Source of the DNA: a virus
Reading direction: 5' to 3' (one strand)
Virus record (IMG/VR): IMGVR_UViG_3300042522_000873
Coordinates: 1 to 25,058 of that record
Length of the DNA stretch: 25,058 bases
The notes below the pieces were generated by a model. That model was given only the letters and a program-made list of their open reading frames with translations. It was not told the origin of the DNA and searched no databases. Shown here piece after piece: positions 1-20,645 of the stretch. The translations under genes and the position numbers were made by a program. Positions within the stretch are counted from its first letter, which is position 1. Each line of letters begins with the position of its first letter.

Positions 1-102
1 ACCAGCCGCCAGGGCGTGCCCGTGCCCGTGGTCTACGGCGAGACGCTGGTGGGCTCGGTGGTGATCTCGGCCGGCGTTGACACCGTGCAGGTGGCGGGAT
101 GA
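1..102 (+). CDS. Tail assembly protein, lambda gpI-like, C-terminal end (5' partial)
   Basis: An open frame enters from the left edge and stops at TGA 100-102, giving the last 33 residues. They read as a small beta-rich domain with VPVPVVYGETLVGSVVISAG. This pattern (VPV-x-YG-x-x-x-VG-S-VVISAG) is typical of the C-terminus of lambda gpI-type tail assembly proteins. In that family the gene lies immediately upstream of gene J and helps form the tail tip. Here the stop overlaps the ATG of the J-like gene in an ATGA arrangement, which suggests translational coupling. The rest of the gene is outside the window, so the family call depends on this short tail and on its position. Confidence 0.7.
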   Translation, partial: TSRQGVPVPVVYGETLVGSVVISAGVDTVQVAG

Positions 103-3100
103 GCAGGATCGTCGGCGCAGGTGGTGGTGGATGCTTCTTAGGGCACACCCTGGTGCGGGTGCCCGATGGTCAGCGGCGCATCGATGAGCTGCAGCCCGGC
201 GATCTGGTGCTCAGCTTCGATGATCTGGGCGAGGTGCATCAGGCCAAGATCCTCAAGGTGCATGAGCACGAAGGAGAGCGAGTCAACCGCTACCGCCTGT
301 GGGGCGGCGCCGTGCTCGACGCCACGCCAAATCACTGGGTGCTCAACCAGTTCAACGCTTTCGTTGAGATCGACACGCTGAGCAGCGACGACTGCCTGGT
401 GGATGAAAACGGCCACCTGCGGCCGATCGTCGGCAAGGCCGAGCTCTGCCATGGCACCGTCTACAACCTCACCGTTGAGGGCCATCACACGTTCATCGCT
501 GGCGGGATCCGCGTTCACAATGCAGGCCTCGGCCTGGGCGCGATCGCAGGTGCTGGCGGCGGCGGCAAAGGCGGCGGCGGCCAGCAGCAGCGCACTCCTA
601 CGGAAGCGGCCGACAACCTGAACAGCGCGCAGTATGCGCAGGTGGTGGATCTGATCAGCGAGGGCGAGATCCAGGGCCTCAAGGCTGGCGCGCAGTCGAT
701 CTTCCTCAACAACACGCAGCTGCAGAACGCAGACGGCTCCTACAACTTCCGAAACGTCACCGTCTACACCCGTAACGGCACGCAGAACCAGTCCTACATC
801 CCCGGATCGCCCGGCATCGAGGACGAGAAGCCGGTCGGCGTGCAGGTGCAGCAGGCCACCCCGATCGTGCGGACCATCACCGACCCGAACGTGGACGCAG
901 CGCGGATCACGATCACGGTGCCGCAGCTGCAATCGTTCACCAACGAAGGCGACGTGAACGGCGCGAGGGTGCGCCTGCAGATCGCCGTGCAGTACGGCGG
1001 CGGCTACACCACGGTGATCGATGACACGATCGCCGGCCGCACCGCTGACACCTATCAGCGCGACTACCTGGTGGAGCTGGCCACCACGCCGGCCGACATC
1101 CGCGTGACCCGGATCACGCCGGACAGCAGCAGCGCCAAGCTGGCCAACGCCTTCACCTGGTCCACCTACACCGAGATCACCTACGCCAAGCTGCGCTACC
1201 CCAACAGCGCGCTGGTCGGCCTGCGGGTGGACGCTGAGCAATTCTCGAGCATCCCGAGCCGCACCTACCTGATCCGCGGCATCAAGGTGCGCATCCCGTC
1301 CAACGCGACGGTGGACACCACCAACGGCCGGCTGGTCTACAGCGGCATCTGGAACGGCACCCTTGGTGCAGCGCAGTGGTGCTCTGATCCGGCGTGGATC
1401 CTGTGGGATCTGCTCACCTCCACGCGCTACGGCTTCGGCGATCACGTCAAGGCAGAGCAGCTCGACAAGTGGGCGTTCTATGCCGCGAGCCAGTACGCCT
1501 CGACGCTGGTCCCTGACGGTTTTGGCGGTTTTGAGCCGCGCTTCTCCTGCAACATCAACATCCAGACGGCCGAGGAGGCCTACAAGCTGATCAATGACAT
1601 GTGCTCGGTGTTCCGGGCCATGCCGTACTGGAGCACCGGCGCGCTGACGATCAGCCAAGATCGGCCGGCCGATTCGGCCTACCTGTTCACGCTGGCCAAC
1701 GTCTCCGAGGAGGGCTTTAACTATCAGGGCAGCAGCCGCAAGACCCGCCCGACCGTGGCGGTGGTCAGCTACCTCGACCTGCCAAGCCGGGACATCGCCT
1801 ACGAGGTGGTCGAGGACCAGGCCGCGATCGCGAAGCACGGCGTGGTCTCCACGCAGATCAGCGCCTTCGCTTGCACCTCTCGTGGCCAGGCCAGCAGGAT
1901 CGGCGAGTGGCTGCTCTATTCAGAGCAGTACGAAGGCGAGGTGGTCAGCTTCACCGCATCGATCGATGCCGGCGTGGTGGTGAGGCCGGGGCAGATCATC
2001 GAGATCAGCGACCCGGTGAAGGCCGGCTCACGGCGCGGCGGCCGCATCACTGCAGCCACCACCACCACGGTGACCGTTGACGATGCCAGCGGGCTCGCAG
2101 CTGGTGCAGCCGCCACCCTCTCGGCGATCCTGCCTGATGGCACGGTGCAGAGCAGTGCGGTGACGGCGATCGCCGGCAACGTGGTCAGCCTCGCCACGCC
2201 GCTGGCCGCAGCGCCCAACGCGAACAGCGTCTGGCTCTACCAGACCTCAAACATCCAGACCTCGACCTGGCGCGTGCTTAGCGTGCAGGAGCAGGACGGC
2301 GCGAAGTACGCGATCAGCGCGCTGGCCTACAACGCCAGCAAGTACGACTACATCGAGCGCGGGGCGGCGCTGCAGCCGCGGGACATCACCGACCTGAACA
2401 TCATCCCGGAGGCCCCCACCAACCTGCAGGCCGCCGAGACGCTCTACGAGCTGAACGGCCGCGCGCTAGCCAAGCTGATCATCAGCTGGCAGCCGGTGGT
2501 CGGCGTGAACGAGTATCGCGTGCGCTGGCGGCCGCAGAACGGCAACTGGACCAGCACCACTCAGTCGCGGCCCGATTTCGAGATCCTCGACACCACCGCC
2601 GGCGTCTATGAGGTGCAGGCCTACAGCCTGAACGCTGGCCTGCGGCAGTCAGTGGAGCCGGCCAAGCTGACGGTGCAGGCCTTCGGCAAGACCGCACCAC
2701 CCGAGAGCGTCACCGGCCTGTCGCTGATCCCGATCGATGGCGCCAGCGCCATCCTGAGCTGGGACCGCTCCCCCGAGCTCGACGTGGTGCTCGGGGGCAA
2801 GGTGCTGATCCGCCACAGCGTGCTGCTCACCGGCGCGATCTGGGAGGAGAGCCAGGAGATCGTGGCTGCTGCAGCCGGCAGCCAGACGCAGAAGCAGGTG
2901 CCGCTGCTCGAGGGGACCTATCTGGTCAAGTTCGAGGATGACGGCGGCCGCCGATCGCTGGTGGCCAGCACCGTGATCGTGGACCTGCCCACACCGCAGC
3001 CGCGGCAGCTGGTGCAGACCTACGCGGAGGAGTTGGAGAGCCCGCCCTTCAACGGCAACTACACCGACATGTTCTACGTGGCCAGCCTGGCCGAAGCGGA

Positions 3101-3806
3101 CGGCGCCAGCGGCCTGATCATCAGCACCGGCCTCGCGGTGGATGAGATGGCCACTGACGGCGACTGGGACGCGCTGGCATCGATCGACAGCGTGGGCGGC
3201 GTGCTGCCGGCGGGCGAATACGAGTTCGGGAGCACGTATTCGTTCCCCGGCGTGTTCGACTGCAACCTGCGCCGCAGGCTGGTCACCCTGCCCTACATCC
3301 CCGGCGACTTCTGGGATGACCACCTCGATGACATCGACACCTGGGACTTCATCGACGGCACCGGCGCCGATCGCGTGAACGCGCTCACCTATGTGCGCAC
3401 CACGCAGGACGACCCCAGCGGCACACCGACCTGGAGCACCTGGCGCGAGTTCGCCAACGCGATCGTGCGGGGCCGTGGCTTCCAGTTCAAGACGGTGGCC
3501 ACCAGCACCGACCCGACGCAGAACATCATCATCGAGGAGCTGGGCGCCGAGCTGGAGCTGCAGCAACGCACCGAGCAATCGGCGGTGCTGACAAGTGGCG
3601 CGGGCGCGTATACCGTCACCTTCGCTAACGCCTTCTTCGAGGCGCCCAGTGTCGGCGTGACGGGTTTCAACATGGCCACCGGCGATTACTTCGCGATAGC
3701 GTCCGTGACGCGGACCGGATTCCAAGTAACATTCAGGAACAGCGCCGGCAGTGCCGTGAGCCGCCAGTTCACCTACACAGCCATCGGGTTCGGGAGGCAG
3801 ATCTAA
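99..3806 (+). CDS. Tail tip / host-specificity protein J with an N-terminal Hint (intein-like) domain
   Basis: This 1235-residue protein matches the lambda gpJ type that forms the tail tip and contacts the host receptor. Residues 1-11 are a Gly-rich start. Residues 12-141 are a complete Hint fold with Cys12, a TPNH motif (Thr76-His79) and a terminal His140-Asn141, followed by Ala142. From residue 142 the usual J N-terminus resumes: a Gly-rich stretch, then AQVVDLISEGEIQGL. The conserved J core runs to about residue 760, followed by two fibronectin III-like repeats (about 770-960) and a beta-rich C-terminal region. The last 75 residues look like a receptor-binding module. The start overlaps the upstream gpI-like stop (ATGA). 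The family and the Hint domain are clear. Whether the Hint domain splices or only cleaves is not known. Confidence 0.9.
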   Translation: MSRIVGAGGGGCFLGHTLVRVPDGQRRIDELQPGDLVLSFDDLGEVHQAKILKVHEHEGERVNRYRLWGGAVLDATPNHWVLNQFNAFVEIDTLSSDDCLVDENGHLRPIVGKAELCHGTVYNLTVEGHHTFIAGGIRVHNAGLGLGAIAGAGGGGKGGGGQQQRTPTEAADNLNSAQYAQVVDLISEGEIQGLKAGAQSIFLNNTQLQNADGSYNFRNVTVYTRNGTQNQSYIPGSPGIEDEKPVGVQVQQATPIVRTITDPNVDAARITITVPQLQSFTNEGDVNGARVRLQIAVQYGGGYTTVIDDTIAGRTADTYQRDYLVELATTPADIRVTRITPDSSSAKLANAFTWSTYTEITYAKLRYPNSALVGLRVDAEQFSSIPSRTYLIRGIKVRIPSNATVDTTNGRLVYSGIWNGTLGAAQWCSDPAWILWDLLTSTRYGFGDHVKAEQLDKWAFYAASQYASTLVPDGFGGFEPRFSCNINIQTAEEAYKLINDMCSVFRAMPYWSTGALTISQDRPADSAYLFTLANVSEEGFNYQGSSRKTRPTVAVVSYLDLPSRDIAYEVVEDQAAIAKHGVVSTQISAFACTSRGQASRIGEWLLYSEQYEGEVVSFTASIDAGVVVRPGQIIEISDPVKAGSRRGGRITAATTTTVTVDDASGLAAGAAATLSAILPDGTVQSSAVTAIAGNVVSLATPLAAAPNANSVWLYQTSNIQTSTWRVLSVQEQDGAKYAISALAYNASKYDYIERGAALQPRDITDLNIIPEAPTNLQAAETLYELNGRALAKLIISWQPVVGVNEYRVRWRPQNGNWTSTTQSRPDFEILDTTAGVYEVQAYSLNAGLRQSVEPAKLTVQAFGKTAPPESVTGLSLIPIDGASAILSWDRSPELDVVLGGKVLIRHSVLLTGAIWEESQEIVAAAAGSQTQKQVPLLEGTYLVKFEDDGGRRSLVASTVIVDLPTPQPRQLVQTYAEELESPPFNGNYTDMFYVASLAEADGASGLIISTGLAVDEMATDGDWDALASIDSVGGVLPAGEYEFGSTYSFPGVFDCNLRRRLVTLPYIPGDFWDDHLDDIDTWDFIDGTGADRVNALTYVRTTQDDPSGTPTWSTWREFANAIVRGRGFQFKTVATSTDPTQNIIIEELGAELELQQRTEQSAVLTSGAGAYTVTFANAFFEAPSVGVTGFNMATGDYFAIASVTRTGFQVTFRNSAGSAVSRQFTYTAIGFGRQI
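132..521 (+). other. Hint / bacterial intein-like domain inside the J protein
   Basis: Residues 12-141 of the J-like protein hold all the hallmark Hint positions: Cys12 at the start (CFLGHTLVRVPDG), the block-B TxxH motif (Thr76, His79), and a block-F/G ending HTFIAGGIRVHN with His140-Asn141. There is no room for a homing endonuclease, since the domain is only 130 residues. The next residue is Ala142, not the Cys, Ser or Thr that inteins need for ligation. This points to a bacterial intein-like (BIL) domain that would cleave rather than splice. It sits inside the Gly-rich N-terminal leader common to J proteins. Confidence 0.88.
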
Positions 3807-4421: not shown

Positions 4422-4934
4422 ATGCCCATTTCACTCGATGGATCAGGACCAGTCACGGGGATCACCTCCGGCGTGGGTCCGGTTGCTGCCACAGCTCAGG
4501 CCTCAACCAGCGGCACCTCGATCGATTTCACCGGTATCCCCAGCTGGGCCAAGCGGATCACGGTGATGCTGAACGGCGTCAGCACGAATGGCACGGCGCA
4601 AGTCGGGGTTCAACTCGGCACCAGCGGCGGAATTGAAGCGACTGGCTACGTTGGTTCGATCAACGATGGCTTCAGCGGGTCGGCTAACTTCTCGACCGCT
4701 TTCCTCGACAACTCTGGCAGCACTGCATCTACGCGCCAGTTTGTCTACACGTTGAGCCTGGTGAGCTCCAACACTTGGATCTGCCAGATCGTCGGGGCGT
4801 TTTCTAACGCAGCAGGCGGCCGCTTCGGCGCCGGCACCAAGACACTTTCCGGCACGCTCGATCGGGTTCGCATCACCACCTCCAACGGCACCGACACCTT
4901 CGACGCCGGCTCCATCAACATCCTCTACGAGTGA
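4422..4934 (+). CDS. Fibre/adhesin-like protein, paralogue 1 (170 aa)
   Basis: A clear ribosome-binding site (AAAGGA) stands 4-5 nt before the ATG. The 170-residue product is rich in Ser, Thr, Gly and Asn and has no cysteine-rich or membrane segment. It shares two blocks with the next gene: FTGIPSWAKRITVM (about residues 35-48) and the C-terminal block KTLSGTLDRVRITT followed by NGTDTFDAGSINILYE. Between the blocks the two proteins differ, as expected for exposed receptor-binding loops on a common beta scaffold. I infer a tip adhesin or short fibre. No enzymatic motif is visible. Confidence 0.65.
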   Translation: MPISLDGSGPVTGITSGVGPVAATAQASTSGTSIDFTGIPSWAKRITVMLNGVSTNGTAQVGVQLGTSGGIEATGYVGSINDGFSGSANFSTAFLDNSGSTASTRQFVYTLSLVSSNTWICQIVGAFSNAAGGRFGAGTKTLSGTLDRVRITTSNGTDTFDAGSINILYE

Positions 4935-4938
4935 AGCC

Positions 4939-5553
4939 ATGACATTAAGGCTCGCGGGCTCCACCTCCGGCTACACCGAGATCGACGCTCCGGCGGTGGC
5001 GGGATCGAACACGCTGGTGCTGCCCAGTGGGAATGGCTCAGCCGGCAATATCCTTGGCACCGATGGTGCGGGGAACTTGAGCTGGGTCAACGGGCGCATG
5101 GTGCTGGAGACCGCCAAGACCGCAACCGGCACCAGTGTGGATTTCACCGGGATTCCAAGTTGGGTGAAGCGGGTGACGGTGATGTTTGACCAAGTAAGTC
5201 TCAGTGGAACCAGCAATTATTTAATTCAACTGGGCGATTCTGGCGGCATCGAAAACACTGGCTACACATCTGGCGTCATCCAAGCAACAAACCAAGGGAC
5301 GGCGACGGATGGGTTTATTGCAAGTGTTGGCCTGACTGCCGCTTCCGTTACCTCTGGAGCTGCAAGAATCCAGCTACTTACGGGCAATACGTGGGCGTTT
5401 GATGGCGGTTTTGTAGCCCCTGCAGTTCCTCGCGTTTGCAACGCTTCAGGCTCTAAAACCCTCTCCGGCACCCTCGACCGCATCCGCATCACCACCGTCA
5501 ACGGCACCGACACGTTTGACGCCGGGTCGATCAACATTCTTTACGAGGGCTGA
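4939..5553 (+). CDS. Fibre/adhesin-like protein, paralogue 2 (204 aa)
   Basis: The gene starts 4 nt after its paralogue ends. Residues 1-55 form a fibre-type collar segment (GSNTLVLPSGNGSAGNILGT). The rest repeats the paralogue layout: FTGIPSWVKRVTVM (about residues 69-82), a variable middle, and a C-terminal KTLSGTLDRIRITT plus NGTDTFDAGSINILYE block. The variable middle (roughly 5200-5450) is visibly richer in A and T and uses different codons from its flanks. This suggests that the receptor-contacting part was exchanged by recombination. The conserved ends would provide homology for such exchange. The function is inferred from context and composition. Confidence 0.65.
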   Translation: MTLRLAGSTSGYTEIDAPAVAGSNTLVLPSGNGSAGNILGTDGAGNLSWVNGRMVLETAKTATGTSVDFTGIPSWVKRVTVMFDQVSLSGTSNYLIQLGDSGGIENTGYTSGVIQATNQGTATDGFIASVGLTAASVTSGAARIQLLTGNTWAFDGGFVAPAVPRVCNASGSKTLSGTLDRIRITTVNGTDTFDAGSINILYEG

Positions 5554-7171: not shown

Positions 7172-8254
7172 ATGGCCAACCCTGCCCCGATCACGCTGGA
7201 GCAGCTGTTCAGGTTCTACCGGGGCCTGCCGCACCAGGCCGCAGCGATCGAGACCCTCGAGCAGGATCTCGCCACCAACGGCTACGCGGTCGCCATGCGG
7301 CGCGATCGGGCATGGTTCAACACCTGGAGCCAGGACGGCAAGCAGGCGGATCTGGCTGCAGCCCTAAAGCTGATCAAGGATTTCGAGGGCTGCCACCTCG
7401 AGGCCTACCCTGACCCGCTCAGCGGCGGCGACCCTTGGACGATCGGCTACGGCACCACCCGCTACGGTGACGGCCGGCCGGTGAAGCGCGGCGACAGGAT
7501 CAACGCGATCGAGGCTGATCTGCTGCTGCGGCAGGAAGTGGACCGCATCGCCGCCAAGCTGCGCGCCACCGTGCCCTACTGGGCCGAGATGGCCGACCAT
7601 CAGAAGTGTGCGCTGATTTCGTTTTCTTACAATTTGGGGGCAGGCTTCTACGGCGCCAAGGGCTTCGAGACGATCAGCAAGCGGCTGCGCGAGAAGGACT
7701 GGCCCGGCGTGCCCGATGCGCTGCTGCTCTACCGCAACCCCGGCACCAACGTGGAGGCCGGCCTGAAGCGGCGCCGCATCGCGGAAGGTGACCTCTGGGG
7801 CCGTGACAAGCAGACCACCGGCCCGGTCTCGGCGATGTTCACCCCCGAGTCGCCCTTCAGCTTCAAGATCACGCCCCACATCACCTACGGCGAGTTCGCG
7901 CTGAATCAGGAGGCGCGGCGTTTCGATCGGCAGGAACAATGCGACACCGCCACCAAGCTGGCGCAGTTCCTCGAGAAGGTGCGCGCGCAGTTCGGCGGCC
8001 GGCCGATCGTGATCACCTCCGGCTACAGGCCCACGGCAATCAACCGGGCCGTGGGTGGTGCCAGCCAGTCGGAGCACCTCTACAACGCGATCGGCGTGGG
8101 TGCGGTGGACTTCGCGGTGGACGGCGCCGACATCTACGCGGTGCAGGACTGGTGCGATCAGCATTGGCCCCACAGCCTCGGCTACGGCGCACCGAAGGGA
8201 TTCTTGCATCTTGGCATCCGCCAGGGCGGGCCTAGGCTCCGGTGGGTCTACTGA
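7172..8254 (+). CDS. Two-domain endolysin: GH24 muramidase + M15 zinc peptidase (360 aa)
   Basis: This is a lysis enzyme with two wall-cutting domains. Residues 60-210 are a T4-lysozyme-type (GH24) domain with KDFEGCHLEAYPDPL and WTIGYGTT. Glu72 is the expected acid, Asp81 and Thr90 complete the usual triad, and SYNLGAGFYG is the conserved structural motif. Residues 235-360 are a peptidase M15-type domain with ITSGYRP, SEH (His302), AVDF (Asp313) and LHLG (His346) as the likely zinc ligands. The first would cut the glycan and the second the peptide stem of peptidoglycan. The first 55 residues are an extra N-terminal segment without a signal peptide, so export would depend on a holin. Two small membrane-protein genes lie directly upstream. 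Confidence 0.9.
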   Translation: MANPAPITLEQLFRFYRGLPHQAAAIETLEQDLATNGYAVAMRRDRAWFNTWSQDGKQADLAAALKLIKDFEGCHLEAYPDPLSGGDPWTIGYGTTRYGDGRPVKRGDRINAIEADLLLRQEVDRIAAKLRATVPYWAEMADHQKCALISFSYNLGAGFYGAKGFETISKRLREKDWPGVPDALLLYRNPGTNVEAGLKRRRIAEGDLWGRDKQTTGPVSAMFTPESPFSFKITPHITYGEFALNQEARRFDRQEQCDTATKLAQFLEKVRAQFGGRPIVITSGYRPTAINRAVGGASQSEHLYNAIGVGAVDFAVDGADIYAVQDWCDQHWPHSLGYGAPKGFLHLGIRQGGPRLRWVY

Positions 8255-8261
8255 CGATCGC

Positions 8262-8777
8262 GTGCCCCTTCCCGACTACGAGCTCCACCACCTCTGCCGC
8301 ACCCACGCGATGGTGGTGCCGTTTGACCCCGAGCTGATCAACCCGGCCAGCATCGACGTACTGCTGGGCGATCGGATCATGATCGAGGTGCCCGGCACCC
8401 CCGAGCTGCAGATCCACGGCATCCACGACCACACCGCCGAGGACCCCTATCTGCTGCAGCCGGGTGAGTTCTGCCTGGCGGAGACGCGCGAGATCTTCAA
8501 CCTGCCCGACACGGTGATGGGGCTGTTCTTCCTGAAGAGCAGCCGCGCCAGAGAAGGGCTCGAGCACAGCCACGCGGGCCTGCTGGACCCCGGCTGGTAC
8601 GGCAGCCGCCTCACGCTGGAGCTGAGCAACGTCCGCCGGATGCACCCGCTGCCCTTATGGCCCGGCATGAAGATCGGCCAGGTCGCCTTCTTCAGGATGG
8701 AGGGCATCCCCCACCGCTCCTACGCGGTGACCGGCCGCTACTGCAACGATCTGACCGTCACCGCCAGCAAGGGCTAA
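8262..8777 (+). CDS. dcd: dCTP deaminase / dUTPase family protein (171 aa)
   Basis: A GTG start at 8262, 7 nt after the endolysin stop, gives 171 residues, the usual length for this family. It converts dCTP to dUTP (or also hydrolyses dUTP) in pyrimidine nucleotide supply. Family motifs are clear: LLQPGEFCLAET (residues 64-75), LKSSRAREGLE (91-101), HAGLLDPGWYG (104-114), LTLELSN with catalytic-type Glu120, and PGMKIGQVAFF. The usual GKSS sequence is LKSS here, with Lys and both Ser kept. Cyanobacterial phages often carry nucleotide-metabolism genes of this kind. Whether it is mono- or bifunctional cannot be read by eye. A strong hairpin terminator follows. Confidence 0.82.
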   Translation: MPLPDYELHHLCRTHAMVVPFDPELINPASIDVLLGDRIMIEVPGTPELQIHGIHDHTAEDPYLLQPGEFCLAETREIFNLPDTVMGLFFLKSSRAREGLEHSHAGLLDPGWYGSRLTLELSNVRRMHPLPLWPGMKIGQVAFFRMEGIPHRSYAVTGRYCNDLTVTASKG

Positions 8778-8803: not shown

Positions 8804-8829
8804 GCCCCGGCCTAAACAGCCGGGGCTTT
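8804..8829. terminator. Bidirectional rho-independent terminator
   Basis: GCCCCGGC (8804-8811) pairs perfectly with GCCGGGGC (8819-8826) across a 7-nt loop and is followed by TTT on the + strand. It lies between the convergent dCTP deaminase-like gene and the integrase. The integrase stop codon is inside the loop, so the left arm lies just past its end. It would end transcription from both sides. Confidence 0.75.
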
Positions 8830-9942
8830 CTGCTGGGTGATGGCGCTGGCCACCTTCGCCGCCATCGCTGCAGCTGCTTCGTCCATCAGGTGCGCATACC
8901 GGGCGGTGGTCTGCGGGCTGGCGTGGCCGAGCAGCGCGCCCACCTGCGGCAGCGTCAGGCCCGCGGTGGTGATGGCATAGGACGCATACGAGTGACGCAG
9001 GTCGTGGACGCGGAGGTTCTTGATCTTGGCCGCCTCCAGCAGCTTGTCCCAGAGATACCAGTAGCCGATCAGGTGGCCGTCACCATCGCCGGCGATGATC
9101 CACTCGGTGTTCGACCTGCGTCTCAGCTCTCGTAGGATGAGACTCGCCGCGGGCGGCAGATGCACCTTGCGCTCATCGTCCTGGCCGCCGGTCTTGTGAG
9201 CGTCGGGGGGCAGCGTCAGGATCGTTGCATCCTGATCGAGCCACTCCCAGCGCGCCGTCATGATCTCGCGCACCCGGCACCCGGTCAGCAGCAGCAGGCG
9301 GATCAGCTGCGCGAACCGCCACCGCACGCCGGCCTCGGCGAACGCATCCAGTGCGGCCAGCAGCCGCTCGAGCTCCACGCGGGATAGGTAGCGCTTGATC
9401 TTGCGCTCACCGTTGGCCTGGATGCCCTTGCACGGGTTGGTGCCCTTGGCGCGGATGCCCCACAGCTCGGCCAGGTTGATCGCCTTGCGCAGCACCGCCA
9501 GCGCGCGGTTCTGCTGGCCCCGCGGTAGCTCCTCGAGCATGTCGATCACCTGGATGGTCTGCAGCGTGGCGACCTTCTCGGCGCCGATGCGCGGCAGGAT
9601 GTGGTTCTTCCACAGCACGGCGTAGCCAGTCTTGGTGCTCGGCCTGACGCGGGTGGCGTAGTGCTTCTCGGTGACCATCTCGGAGAGCTCGCGGATGGTC
9701 TTGCCCTGGCGCAGCAGCTGCTTGTCGGTGCCAGGCGCCTCACCCTTGGCGACAGCGGCCAGGATCTTGATCGCCTCCTCACGCGCCATGGTCAGGCTGA
9801 CCACCTCGGCCCGGCCGATCTTGTGGGTCTGCTGCTTGCCGGAGGGCTCGCGGTAGCGCACGTAATAGGTGCGGACGCCGGTGGGCAGGACCATCAACCC
9901 GAGGCCTGAAATCTTCCGATCGGCCTGCCATTCGCGCTTCAT
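8812..9942 (-). CDS. int: Tyrosine integrase
   Basis: This 376-residue site-specific recombinase would integrate and excise the phage. Residues 1-75 are an arm-binding-type N-terminal domain (LPTGVRTYYVRYR). Residues 80-180 are the core-binding helical domain. Residues 185-360 are the catalytic domain with Arg223 (TGCRVREI), Lys250 (AHKTG), His313 and Arg316 (HDLRHS), His340 (LLGH) and the nucleophile Tyr349 (TTARYAHL). All catalytic positions are present. The start has GGGAG about 8 nt upstream. The gene points away from a tRNA 3' fragment 150 bp upstream, as expected for an integrase that targets a tRNA gene. Its stop codon lies in the loop of a terminator shared with the gene on the other strand. 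Confidence 0.95.
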   Translation of the reverse strand: MKREWQADRKISGLGLMVLPTGVRTYYVRYREPSGKQQTHKIGRAEVVSLTMAREEAIKILAAVAKGEAPGTDKQLLRQGKTIRELSEMVTEKHYATRVRPSTKTGYAVLWKNHILPRIGAEKVATLQTIQVIDMLEELPRGQQNRALAVLRKAINLAELWGIRAKGTNPCKGIQANGERKIKRYLSRVELERLLAALDAFAEAGVRWRFAQLIRLLLLTGCRVREIMTARWEWLDQDATILTLPPDAHKTGGQDDERKVHLPPAASLILRELRRRSNTEWIIAGDGDGHLIGYWYLWDKLLEAAKIKNLRVHDLRHSYASYAITTAGLTLPQVGALLGHASPQTTARYAHLMDEAAAAMAAKVASAITQQKAPAV

Positions 9943-18251: not shown

Positions 18252-18466
18252 CGGTTGGGTTGCGAGGGATTGTTTGGCAGGCCGCGCAGGTTGCGCTGTT
18301 CGTAGGCCACGACCTCATCCACGGGGTAGAGGACGCGGCCGCCGATCTTCACGAAGCGCGGCCCACGGTTCTGGCTGCTGCGCCAGTTGTCGAGCGTGCT
18401 GAGCGAGACGATATTCCGCCATCGAGCAGCCAGCTCGCGCGGGGTCAGATACTCAGAAGATGTCAT
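18248..18466 (-). CDS. AlpA/MerR-like HTH protein, excisionase candidate (72 aa)
   Basis: Residues 6-57 match the small winged-HTH type used by excisionases and AlpA regulators: YLTPRELAARW, then SLSTLDNWRSSQNRGPRFVK, IGGRVLYPVDEVVAYE. The LxxRELAxxW start, the NWR turn and the R-V-x-Y-P-x-x-E-V ending are characteristic. A directionality factor for the tyrosine integrase, or a regulator of early genes, would fit. It overlaps the end of the RecT-like gene by 14 nt and the SSB-like gene by 4 nt. Confidence 0.65.
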   Translation of the reverse strand: MTSSEYLTPRELAARWRNIVSLSTLDNWRSSQNRGPRFVKIGGRVLYPVDEVVAYEQRNLRGLPNNPSQPNR

Positions 18467-19142
18467 CGTTCGGATCCTCTCCCACGGGCTCAGCGGCCAC
18501 GGTCGGCTTCGGTTGCTTGATCTTGGCGTTCAGGTCTTCCAGCGTCGCCTTCGGCAGTTCAGGCTCGGCCGCGCGCACCGTCACCGGCTGCACGTCCACC
18601 ACCTCCTCCTCGGTCTGGATGCCCACCAGCAGCTCGGGGATGTATAGCCGGCCCCAGAATGCCGCGGCCCGGTAGCGAATCATCAGGTCGGGCATGGTCT
18701 GCCACTTGCTACCGCTCTTAGTGGCCCACCCTTCCTTCTTCGCCATCGCCATGCTCACCACCGGCCCCTTCAGGTCGGCGCCGCTGGCCAGCTCGGTGGC
18801 CACGCAGTAGCAGGCCAGGCTGTCGCCGGTGCCGCTGATCTCGTAGCGCAGCGGGCTGAAGCGGCCGCAGCCGTTGATCAGGCCGATGATGAACTGGCTC
18901 GACCAGCTAGGCCGACCGTGGATGATGTGGAGGTTCTGAACCACCACGAACGGGCTCATCCGCATCCGGCTGGCGATCTCGAGCGCCACCAGGCAATTCG
19001 CGAAGCCGTTCTGCCCTTGGAACTGAGGCGGCACCAGCGTGGAGCTCGCGAGCGACTTGGCCATCCGCTGGGCATCCTCGAAGGCTTGGATCCCCGAGAA
19101 GGCTGAGCCGCTCGTCGTTGTGAGTGCTGTGGATTCGGTCAT
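18453..19142 (-). CDS. recT: RecT-like single-strand annealing protein (229 aa)
   Basis: The Met at 19142 (MTESTALTTTSGSAFSGIQA) fits the upstream junction (the stop overlaps by ATGA); the longer frame adds atypical Arg/Gly-rich residues. The core reads FANCLVALEIASRMRMSPFV, VVQNLHIIHGRPSWSS, MAMAKKEGWATKSGSKW and MIRYRAAAFWGRLYIPELLV, then TEEEVVDV. This is the pattern of RecT-type recombinases, with the (V/L)ALEIxxxxxxSP helix, the NLHIIHGRPS turn and the MxRYRAAxFxxR helix. These proteins anneal complementary strands. The C-terminus ends in an acidic tip NDDIF. The RecE-type nuclease lies upstream in the same run. Confidence 0.65.
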   Translation of the reverse strand: MTESTALTTTSGSAFSGIQAFEDAQRMAKSLASSTLVPPQFQGQNGFANCLVALEIASRMRMSPFVVVQNLHIIHGRPSWSSQFIIGLINGCGRFSPLRYEISGTGDSLACYCVATELASGADLKGPVVSMAMAKKEGWATKSGSKWQTMPDLMIRYRAAAFWGRLYIPELLVGIQTEEEVVDVQPVTVRAAEPELPKATLEDLNAKIKQPKPTVAAEPVGEDPNDDIF

Positions 19143-19279
19143 GACTTCAGGGCCATCAGGATGAAGAAGGAACCGGCCGCCGCTGTCGCCAGCGATGCGT
19201 CGGTCAGGTGTGAGAGGAAGATCGCGCCGCACCAGGTGGTGATCACGATCAGGGCTAGGTTCGCGAGCTGGTCCATCAT
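19139..19279 (-). CDS. Small membrane protein (46 aa)
   Basis: The product MMDQLANLALIVITTWCGAI followed by FLSHLTDASL and AAAGSFFILMALKS has two hydrophobic segments, about residues 8-22 and 30-43, so it may span the membrane twice. The ATGATG start overlaps the stop of the HNH gene upstream by 4 nt, and its stop overlaps the RecT-like start. It is short, but the tight junctions on both sides support it. Function is unknown. Confidence 0.5.
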   Translation of the reverse strand: MMDQLANLALIVITTWCGAIFLSHLTDASLATAAAGSFFILMALKS

Positions 19280-19739: not shown

Positions 19740-20645
19740 TCAGTACATCTCAATTTCGGGTGCAGGGCTTACCGTTGGCGTGCCATCGGCCCGTGGGCGC
19801 ATCCACGTCGGCAGGCTGATCGTCTCGATCTGGTCGCTGTAGGCCGGCCAGTAGTCGGCATCGCGGCACTCAGCCAACAGCAGCATGTCGCGCGCAGCGG
19901 TCACCTGCCCGGCCGTCACCATCTCTGCGTCGGCGGCGTAGACGGCCACCGCATGGGGCGCCTTCTTCTCCACGCAGATGAAGATGAACTGCTCCGGCCG
20001 CCGGCCTGTCGCGCGCTCGAGGCCGTCGAGATACCAGCTGGCCTGCACGTGATAGCGGAAGTTCGCGATCGACTTGCTGAACCCTGCCGGGCTCGCATCC
20101 TCGGTGGTCTTCAGATCCACGATCAGGCTGCCGTCATCGAGCAGCCAGTCGGGCCGGCATTTGCACTCGAGCCCCGTGGCCTCGTCGGTCCACATGTGCG
20201 TGGTCTCAGCTTTGCCTGGCAGCCCCAGCAGGTAGGCCGCAGCTGGGTGGCCATGCACCGCGCGGCCCATCGCCATCACCAGCTCGGCGTCGGTACGGCT
20301 AATCACCGTACGACCCACGCTCTCGGCCTCGAACGCGGCCCACGCATCCTTGCCTGCTTTGTAGCGGCGATCGATGCCCTCCGGTGCCGCGATGTAGCGC
20401 GCGTCCCATTCGCTCAGCTCGAGGATGTGGGTGTGCACCGCCGTGCCGAGCAGCATGGCCGCAGTCGGCTCGGGCTCCACGCGCTTCGGGTCCACGTACC
20501 GCGCCCAGTAGTGCAGCGGGCTGCGCGCCACCAGATCGAGGTGGCTCTTGCTGACCACGCTGGTGAGCGCGTGGTACTCGGCGTTCTCCATAGGCAGCTG
20601 CTCATCACGGCTCACTGAACTTACCACAACATCCCGACTGTTCAT
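19740..20645 (-). CDS. recE: RecE-type 5'-3' exonuclease (301 aa)
   Basis: The protein matches the exodeoxyribonuclease VIII (RecE) nuclease domain. It starts with a typical SKSHLDLVARSPLHYWARYV region (residues 32-51), has GTAVHTHILE (67-76), and holds the PD-(D/E)xK core CRPDWLLDDGSLIVDLKTT with Asp166, Asp177 and Lys179. It ends with FRYHVQASWYLDGL, including Tyr198 and Gln201. It would resect double-stranded ends to give 3' tails for the RecT-like protein. The Met at 20645 has GGGGG about 5 nt before it; the Met at residue 19 (MENAEYHALT) is a second possible start that matches RecE family starts. An HNH gene lies between it and the RecT-like gene. Confidence 0.85.
   Translation of the reverse strand: MNSRDVVVSSVSRDEQLPMENAEYHALTSVVSKSHLDLVARSPLHYWARYVDPKRVEPEPTAAMLLGTAVHTHILELSEWDARYIAAPEGIDRRYKAGKDAWAAFEAESVGRTVISRTDAELVMAMGRAVHGHPAAAYLLGLPGKAETTHMWTDEATGLECKCRPDWLLDDGSLIVDLKTTEDASPAGFSKSIANFRYHVQASWYLDGLERATGRRPEQFIFICVEKKAPHAVAVYAADAEMVTAGQVTAARDMLLLAECRDADYWPAYSDQIETISLPTWMRPRADGTPTVSPAPEIEMY

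Follow-up and report, generated by a model that had tools for sequence, protein, structure and literature searches.

A putative self-excising Hint domain at a fixed site in the leader of lambda-J-like phage tail-tip proteins

The tail-tip gene of a phage represented in IMG/VR carries, close to its start, a complete Hint domain, which we read, with a probability of roughly two in three, as an A-type-BIL-like self-excising domain that occupies a fixed site in the J leader as an optional mobile cassette. The analysis started from a 25-kb virus record (IMGVR_UViG_3300042522_000873; 25,058 nucleotides, referred to as the window), and all positions are given in window coordinates. We describe the anatomy of the domain, the selection on both of its reaction sites and on the Ala that follows it, its gain and loss, and its lateral exchange between J genes. 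Self-excision is very probable judging from the residue pattern, and we likewise infer the mix of its products and recombination as its means of movement.

Results

The J gene and the inserted domain

The carrier of the domain is a gene on the plus strand (99-3806; 1235 aa, from the open reading frame and profile matches), the start ATG of which overlaps the TGA (100-102) of a gpI-like gene upstream. Its body (594-3803) comprises HDII/FNIII-A, Phage-tail_3 and downstream domains according to profile and structure matches, with FNIII-A_GpJ and Phage-tail_3 recovered by library search. The C-terminal body is homologous to lambda J (central tail fibre J profile phrog_31, E 7e-251), and solved J structures match at E about 1e-122, aligning from J residue 156-158 onward. 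By these matches the host protein is a lambda-J-like tail-tip protein, and the location in the Gly-rich leader of such a protein, as given in the initial annotation, was borne out.

The following elements all lie on the plus strand. The N-leader MSRIVGAGGGG (11 aa; 99-131), the motif of which is the N-terminus of Hint-less J alleles, is followed by the 130-residue Hint domain (132-521; J residues 12-141), recognised by domain libraries and the fold model. The domain begins exactly with Cys1 (J Cys12; codon 132-134), the nucleophile of the N-terminal acyl shift, and ends exactly with His-Asn (J 140-141; 516-521), the site of Asn cyclisation. Between them are the block B motif Thr-Pro-Asn-His (J 76-79; 324-335) and a second Cys (domain Cys88, J Cys99; 393-395). 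Directly after Asn141 comes the codon of Ala142 (522-524), which opens the C-flank Ala-Gly-Leu-Gly (+1 to +4; 522-533), conserved across copies and without a nucleophile at +1. The leader motif recurs 3' of the domain (IAGAGGGG-K; 543-569), where it matches the leader of Hint-less J, and the sequence after the Hint domain in this J reads AGLGLGAIAGAGGGGKGGGG. The catalytic positions listed at annotation (Cys12, Thr76-x-x-His79, His140-Asn141) and Ala142 are thus all present in the translation of the open reading frame.

Domain identity and predicted fold

A 174-aa N-terminal piece passed the Pfam cut-offs for both Hint (32.3 bits, cut-off 29.7) and PT-HINT (29.0 bits, cut-off 27.7), whereas both scores fell slightly under the cut-offs when the whole J protein was used as query; NCBIfam intein_Cterm was above its cut-off. 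An AlphaFold model built from a 45-sequence alignment had pLDDT values above 90 throughout the domain, dropping below 50 in the Gly-rich flank on either side. Fold comparison of this model recovered inteins, BIL domains and Hedgehog among solved structures at Z about 20 (20-21; Hedgehog 19.6-19.9), with intein and BIL scores tied, so that the fold does not separate these two classes. The profile search of solved relatives placed a Clostridium BIL domain (2lwy) first with E 6.8e-10 and the gp41-1 intein next with 1.5e-9, and PT-HINT matched all 45 members of the alignment, with a best E of 3.7e-13 versus 1.4e-9 for Intein_splicing. By sequence and by predicted fold, the domain is a member of the Hint superfamily. 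The resemblance is far beyond chance: relatives are encoded by at least 463 viral stretches, and the catalytic residues are complete in all but one of 148 distinct copies.

Selection on the catalytic residues and the flank

A tree built from 148 distinct Hint DNA sequences served to count silent and replacement changes. Across the whole domain 920 replacement and 2853 silent changes were found. No replacement occurred at Cys1 (19 silent changes), block B Thr (37 silent), His129 (J His140; 20 silent) or Asn130 (J Asn141; 33 silent), all invariant in 148 of 148 copies. The block B His is kept in 147 of 148, the one exception being a change of His68 to Asn in a single copy in which all other catalytic residues are kept. 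Homologues with degraded Cys12, His140 or Asn141, which had been named at annotation as speaking against self-processing, were not found among the 148 distinct copies.

The flank is equally constrained. Ala+1 is invariant (148/148) through 39 silent changes without a replacement and uses all four Ala codons, from which Thr or Ser is one step away; a nucleophile at +1 was never seen in any of the 148 distinct copies. Gly+2 (24 silent, 0 replacement) and Gly+4 (23 silent, 0 replacement) are likewise fixed in 148/148, and position +3 is Leu or Ile (51 silent changes, 4 Leu/Ile changes). Because the loci fetched by a DNA pattern that fixes the C-terminal block are biased for that block, the conclusions were redone on loci recruited by J alone, which can have no bias toward the domain; there, 39 of 39 distinct full copies were intact.

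Since Ala+1 stayed unchanged through 39 silent changes, it is, on this pattern of substitution, a feature maintained by selection. The invariance of Cys1 through 19 silent changes argues that the N-terminal thioester chemistry is selected as well, and hence that the chemistry at both domain ends is under selection, beyond Asn cleavage alone. In a single Hint copy, at locus L325, the Gly at -1 is replaced by Pro; the acyl shift at the N-terminus should be slower there. Cys88 (J Cys99), with 13 silent and no replacement changes, is likewise found in all 148 copies and is a possible redox partner of Cys12.

A single insertion site between leader repeats

The domain has one fixed insertion site, the Gly-rich leader near the J start. 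Empty alleles have the form M...Phi-x-G-A-GGGG-K-GGGG, and occupied alleles M...Phi-x-G-(A/S)-GGGG-[Hint]-AGLGxx-Phi-x-G-(A/S)-GGGG-K-GGGG, where the motif Phi-x-G-[ASG]-G is found in 138 of 142 distinct N-leaders of Hint-bearing J and in 140 of 142 C-flanks. The comparison of J proteins with and without the insert, which had been proposed at annotation, gave as difference the Hint domain, its AGLG flank and a repeated leader. A good example is the empty locus L333, MTQTKYVVGAGGGGGK, against the occupied locus L348, [MTQTKYIQGAGGGG][Hint][AGLGAR][IAGAGGGGGK], the cleaved product of which, AGLGAR-IAGAGGGGGK, would be just as long as the native MTQTKY-VVGAGGGGGK of L333. Because the leader motif stands on both sides of the domain, cleavage after Asn141 alone would restore a native-like J N-terminus matching the empty allele, and ligation would leave J with a doubled leader.

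Gain, loss and lateral movement

Among the loci recruited by J, 60 have the domain, 87 are without it and 4 are undecidable at contig edges; the edge-cut loci L120, L296, L306 and L320 were excluded from the presence/absence counts. Presence of the domain switched at least 17 times on a tree of 115 J heads, and well-supported branches force at least 8 of these switches. An earlier tree of 157 J heads, in which the edge-cut L120 was still scored as Hint-less, gave 12 switches, 8 well supported. J proteins that are 95-97% identical differ in the presence of the domain. The maturation switch suggested at annotation is therefore not a general one for the tail, since such close relatives lack the domain.

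Hint distances follow J distances only in part (matrix correlation 0.57). L231 and L226 share 92-96% identity in the Hint DNA, against 40-54% in the upstream DNA outside the leader and 57-63% in the J body. L143 and L047 show the reverse, with flanks mostly at 90-97% and Hint at 73-85% identity. These contrasts between Hint and flanks indicate at the DNA level that the domain moves sideways between J genes as a unit. It is without an endonuclease, and recombination at the leader would be the simplest route of movement; the window phage encodes its own RecT-like annealing protein and an exonuclease VIII-like protein.

In the gpI-like gene of L100, about 200-400 bp before the J start, we observed a segment that spans a hydrophobic plug-like stretch and, in comparisons of close relatives, is far more variable than its flanks, irrespective of the Hint domain. 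A link between the domain and this segment was considered and rejected, the variation being equal in pairs that both are without the domain.

Distribution

The carriers are uncultured aquatic phages, numbering in the hundreds. A scan of IMG/VR yielded the at least 463 stretches mentioned above, and 485 with the alignment as query; a rescan of the viral set with the alignment query returned identical top 80 loci. Among the fetched loci, each viral copy that could be placed lies in a J leader. In 50,697 records of isolated phages the domain was absent from any J gene, and the matches there were distant Hint/intein domains (about 26-33% identity) in other genes, so that no cultured phage can be named as a carrier. 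One cyanobacterial MAG carries the domain, and no second copy was found in 200 further genomes of its family. The nearest full-length J proteins from isolates belong to Prochlorococcus phages (37% identity) and are without a Hint domain. Together with the MAG, this makes a cyanobacterial host likely. In the open-licence literature we did not find a Hint domain described in a phage J protein.

Other genes of the window

Two adjacent genes behind J (4422-4934 and 4939-5553), on reading their sequences, share a similar C-terminal ending (TLDR-RITT-NGTDTFDAGSINILYE) and are likely duplicated tail-fibre or lectin-like genes. A dCTP deaminase-like gene (8055-8777) lies behind the endolysin gene. Because genes for an integrase, the RecT-like annealing protein and the exonuclease VIII-like protein are present (8812-9942, 18453-19232 and 19740-20645, in this order; strand -), the window phage is probably temperate, with its own recombination module.

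Discussion

Relation to known Hint systems

Nearest among known systems are the A-type BIL domains (PT-HINT PF07591; 2lwy, 6y75), which give the best profile match, although the gp41-1 intein scores almost as well, and share with the J domain a size of about 130 aa, Cys1, block B TxxH, the VYNLTVE..HT block, the C-terminal His-Asn, the absence of a nucleophile at +1 and the lack of an endonuclease. Known A-type BIL domains are found in variable regions of non-conserved bacterial proteins, whereas this domain always lies at a single, fixed position within the leader of a conserved virion protein of phages, followed by Ala-Gly-(Leu/Ile)-Gly at +1 to +4. We therefore use the name A-type-BIL-like, location being a trait of distribution and not of mechanism. 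Class 1 mini-inteins (gp41-1, DnaB, the Mtu RecA splicing domain) have in common with it the fold, all intein-side catalytic residues, a single fixed insertion site with empty alleles among close relatives, patchy presence and lateral spread. They usually have Cys, Ser or Thr at +1 (PMC7664689), in contrast to Ala in all 148 copies here, and the site here is a flexible leader instead of a conserved active site. Class 2 and class 3 inteins have no Cys or Ser at position 1, and those of class 3 have a Cys in block F. A class 2 or class 3 mechanism was rejected, as Cys1 is invariant and block F position F:4, assigned by eye from the VYNL motif, is Asn112 in 148/148.

Hint domains within phage proteins are also known as inteins of terminases and replication enzymes (phiCbK TerL, cyanophage Mic1 TerL), but those have a nucleophilic +1 and enzymes as hosts, and one of the two Mic1 inteins has an endonuclease. 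The Hedgehog C-terminal Hint domain shares the fold and the residues for the N-S acyl shift; however, it performs the N-terminal acyl shift only (PMC7664689), whereas here the C-terminal His-Asn is invariant, and with 130 residues the J domain is too small for a sterol-recognition region.

A model of two-ended self-excision

For A-type BIL domains it has been proposed that an N-terminal thioester forms, Asn cyclises and a direct amine attack joins the flanks, with cleavage as the dominant outcome (PMC4031507; PMC7664689). The residue pattern described here fits this chemistry, and two-ended self-excision is the best reading of it. After translation, Cys12 would form a thioester with Gly11 and Asn141 would cyclise, so that the Hint domain leaves from both ends and the freed J starts at Ala142 (AGLG...). 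In a fraction of the molecules the Ala142 amine may attack the thioester directly, as proposed for A-type BIL domains, and ligate J to the leader. Such ligation would be dispensable, because the sequence 3' of Asn141 repeats the native leader motif and the cleaved N-terminus would already be native-like. Recombination in the Gly-rich flanking repeats might then delete, insert or swap the cassette between J lineages. Points against this model are the one copy with block B His changed to Asn, the fold comparison that ties inteins with BIL domains, and an N-leader that has stayed J-like.

Solved structures of the lambda tip show the N-terminal region of J packed beside gpI and gpL (PMC10721106; PMC11101478). 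By analogy, a 130-residue domain at the J N-terminus would plausibly obstruct assembly unless removed.

The alternative that survives best, rather unlikely as it is, accepts self-excision and concerns persistence: the domain might be a purely selfish, intein-like parasite that makes no difference to the phage. Its patchy occurrence and its lateral transfer as a unit are in line with this reading; yet 60 of 147 J-recruited loci retain a domain that has no endonuclease and whose deletion between the flanking repeats is apparently easy, and every full copy in these loci is intact.

True protein splicing as the main outcome, in which the leader would be ligated via thioester aminolysis to give MSRIVGAGGGG-AGLGLGAIAGAGGGGK... 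with a doubled leader, we hold to be unlikely. Cys1 and block B Thr are invariant, as splicing would have it, and 138 of 142 N-leaders keep the J motif. The N-leader is still J-like although a cleavage-only pathway discards it, which favours either ligation or shared ancestry with the empty alleles. The initial annotation regarded normal intein ligation as unlikely on account of Ala at +1; ligation is nevertheless compatible with Ala+1, as splicing has been reported for A-type BIL domains that lack a +1 nucleophile (PMC4031507). Against splicing as the main outcome, reviews give cleavage as dominant for A-type BIL domains (PMC7664689; PMC4031507), and a complete leader in the C-flank leaves no need for ligation.

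By established intein chemistry, Asn cyclisation alone requires neither Cys1 nor the block B Thr. Cleavage at Asn141 only, with the 11-residue leader departing attached to the Hint domain and J beginning at Ala142, was the mechanism originally envisaged; it accords with the invariant His-Asn and with the cleaved product of L348 equalling the native L333 N-terminus in length, but appears improbable, because it leaves unexplained an invariant Cys1 (19 silent, 0 replacement) as well as block B Thr (37 silent, 0 replacement). That the domain is simply retained on the virion as a structural or binding domain, tethered at the tail tip by the Gly-rich leader, is very improbable: close relatives without it do occur naturally, but Cys1, TxxH, His-Asn and the fixed AGLG flank would then have been kept through 19 to 39 silent changes without reason.

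These assessments overlap, because splicing and cleavage at Asn141 alone are special cases of self-excision or lie close to it, and the selfish reading bears on persistence only. Beyond two-ended self-excision, we suggest with considerable reserve that the domain could be a dedicated self-excising element confined to the J leader, endonuclease-free, laterally mobile and with Ala+1, which is acquired, lost and exchanged as a cassette. It would turn the N-terminus of the virion tip into AGLG and perhaps pass the leader, activated as a thioester, to a further component of virion or cell before full excision.

Significance

The predicted BIL-type autoprocessing would be placed here in a conserved virion machine, as opposed to a variable surface protein of bacteria. 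Pairs of near-identical J proteins that differ in the domain constitute a natural experiment on the persistence of self-processing domains that can be cleanly deleted, and hundreds of natural Hint domains fixed for Ala+1 provide a test set for ligation or release without a side-chain nucleophile.
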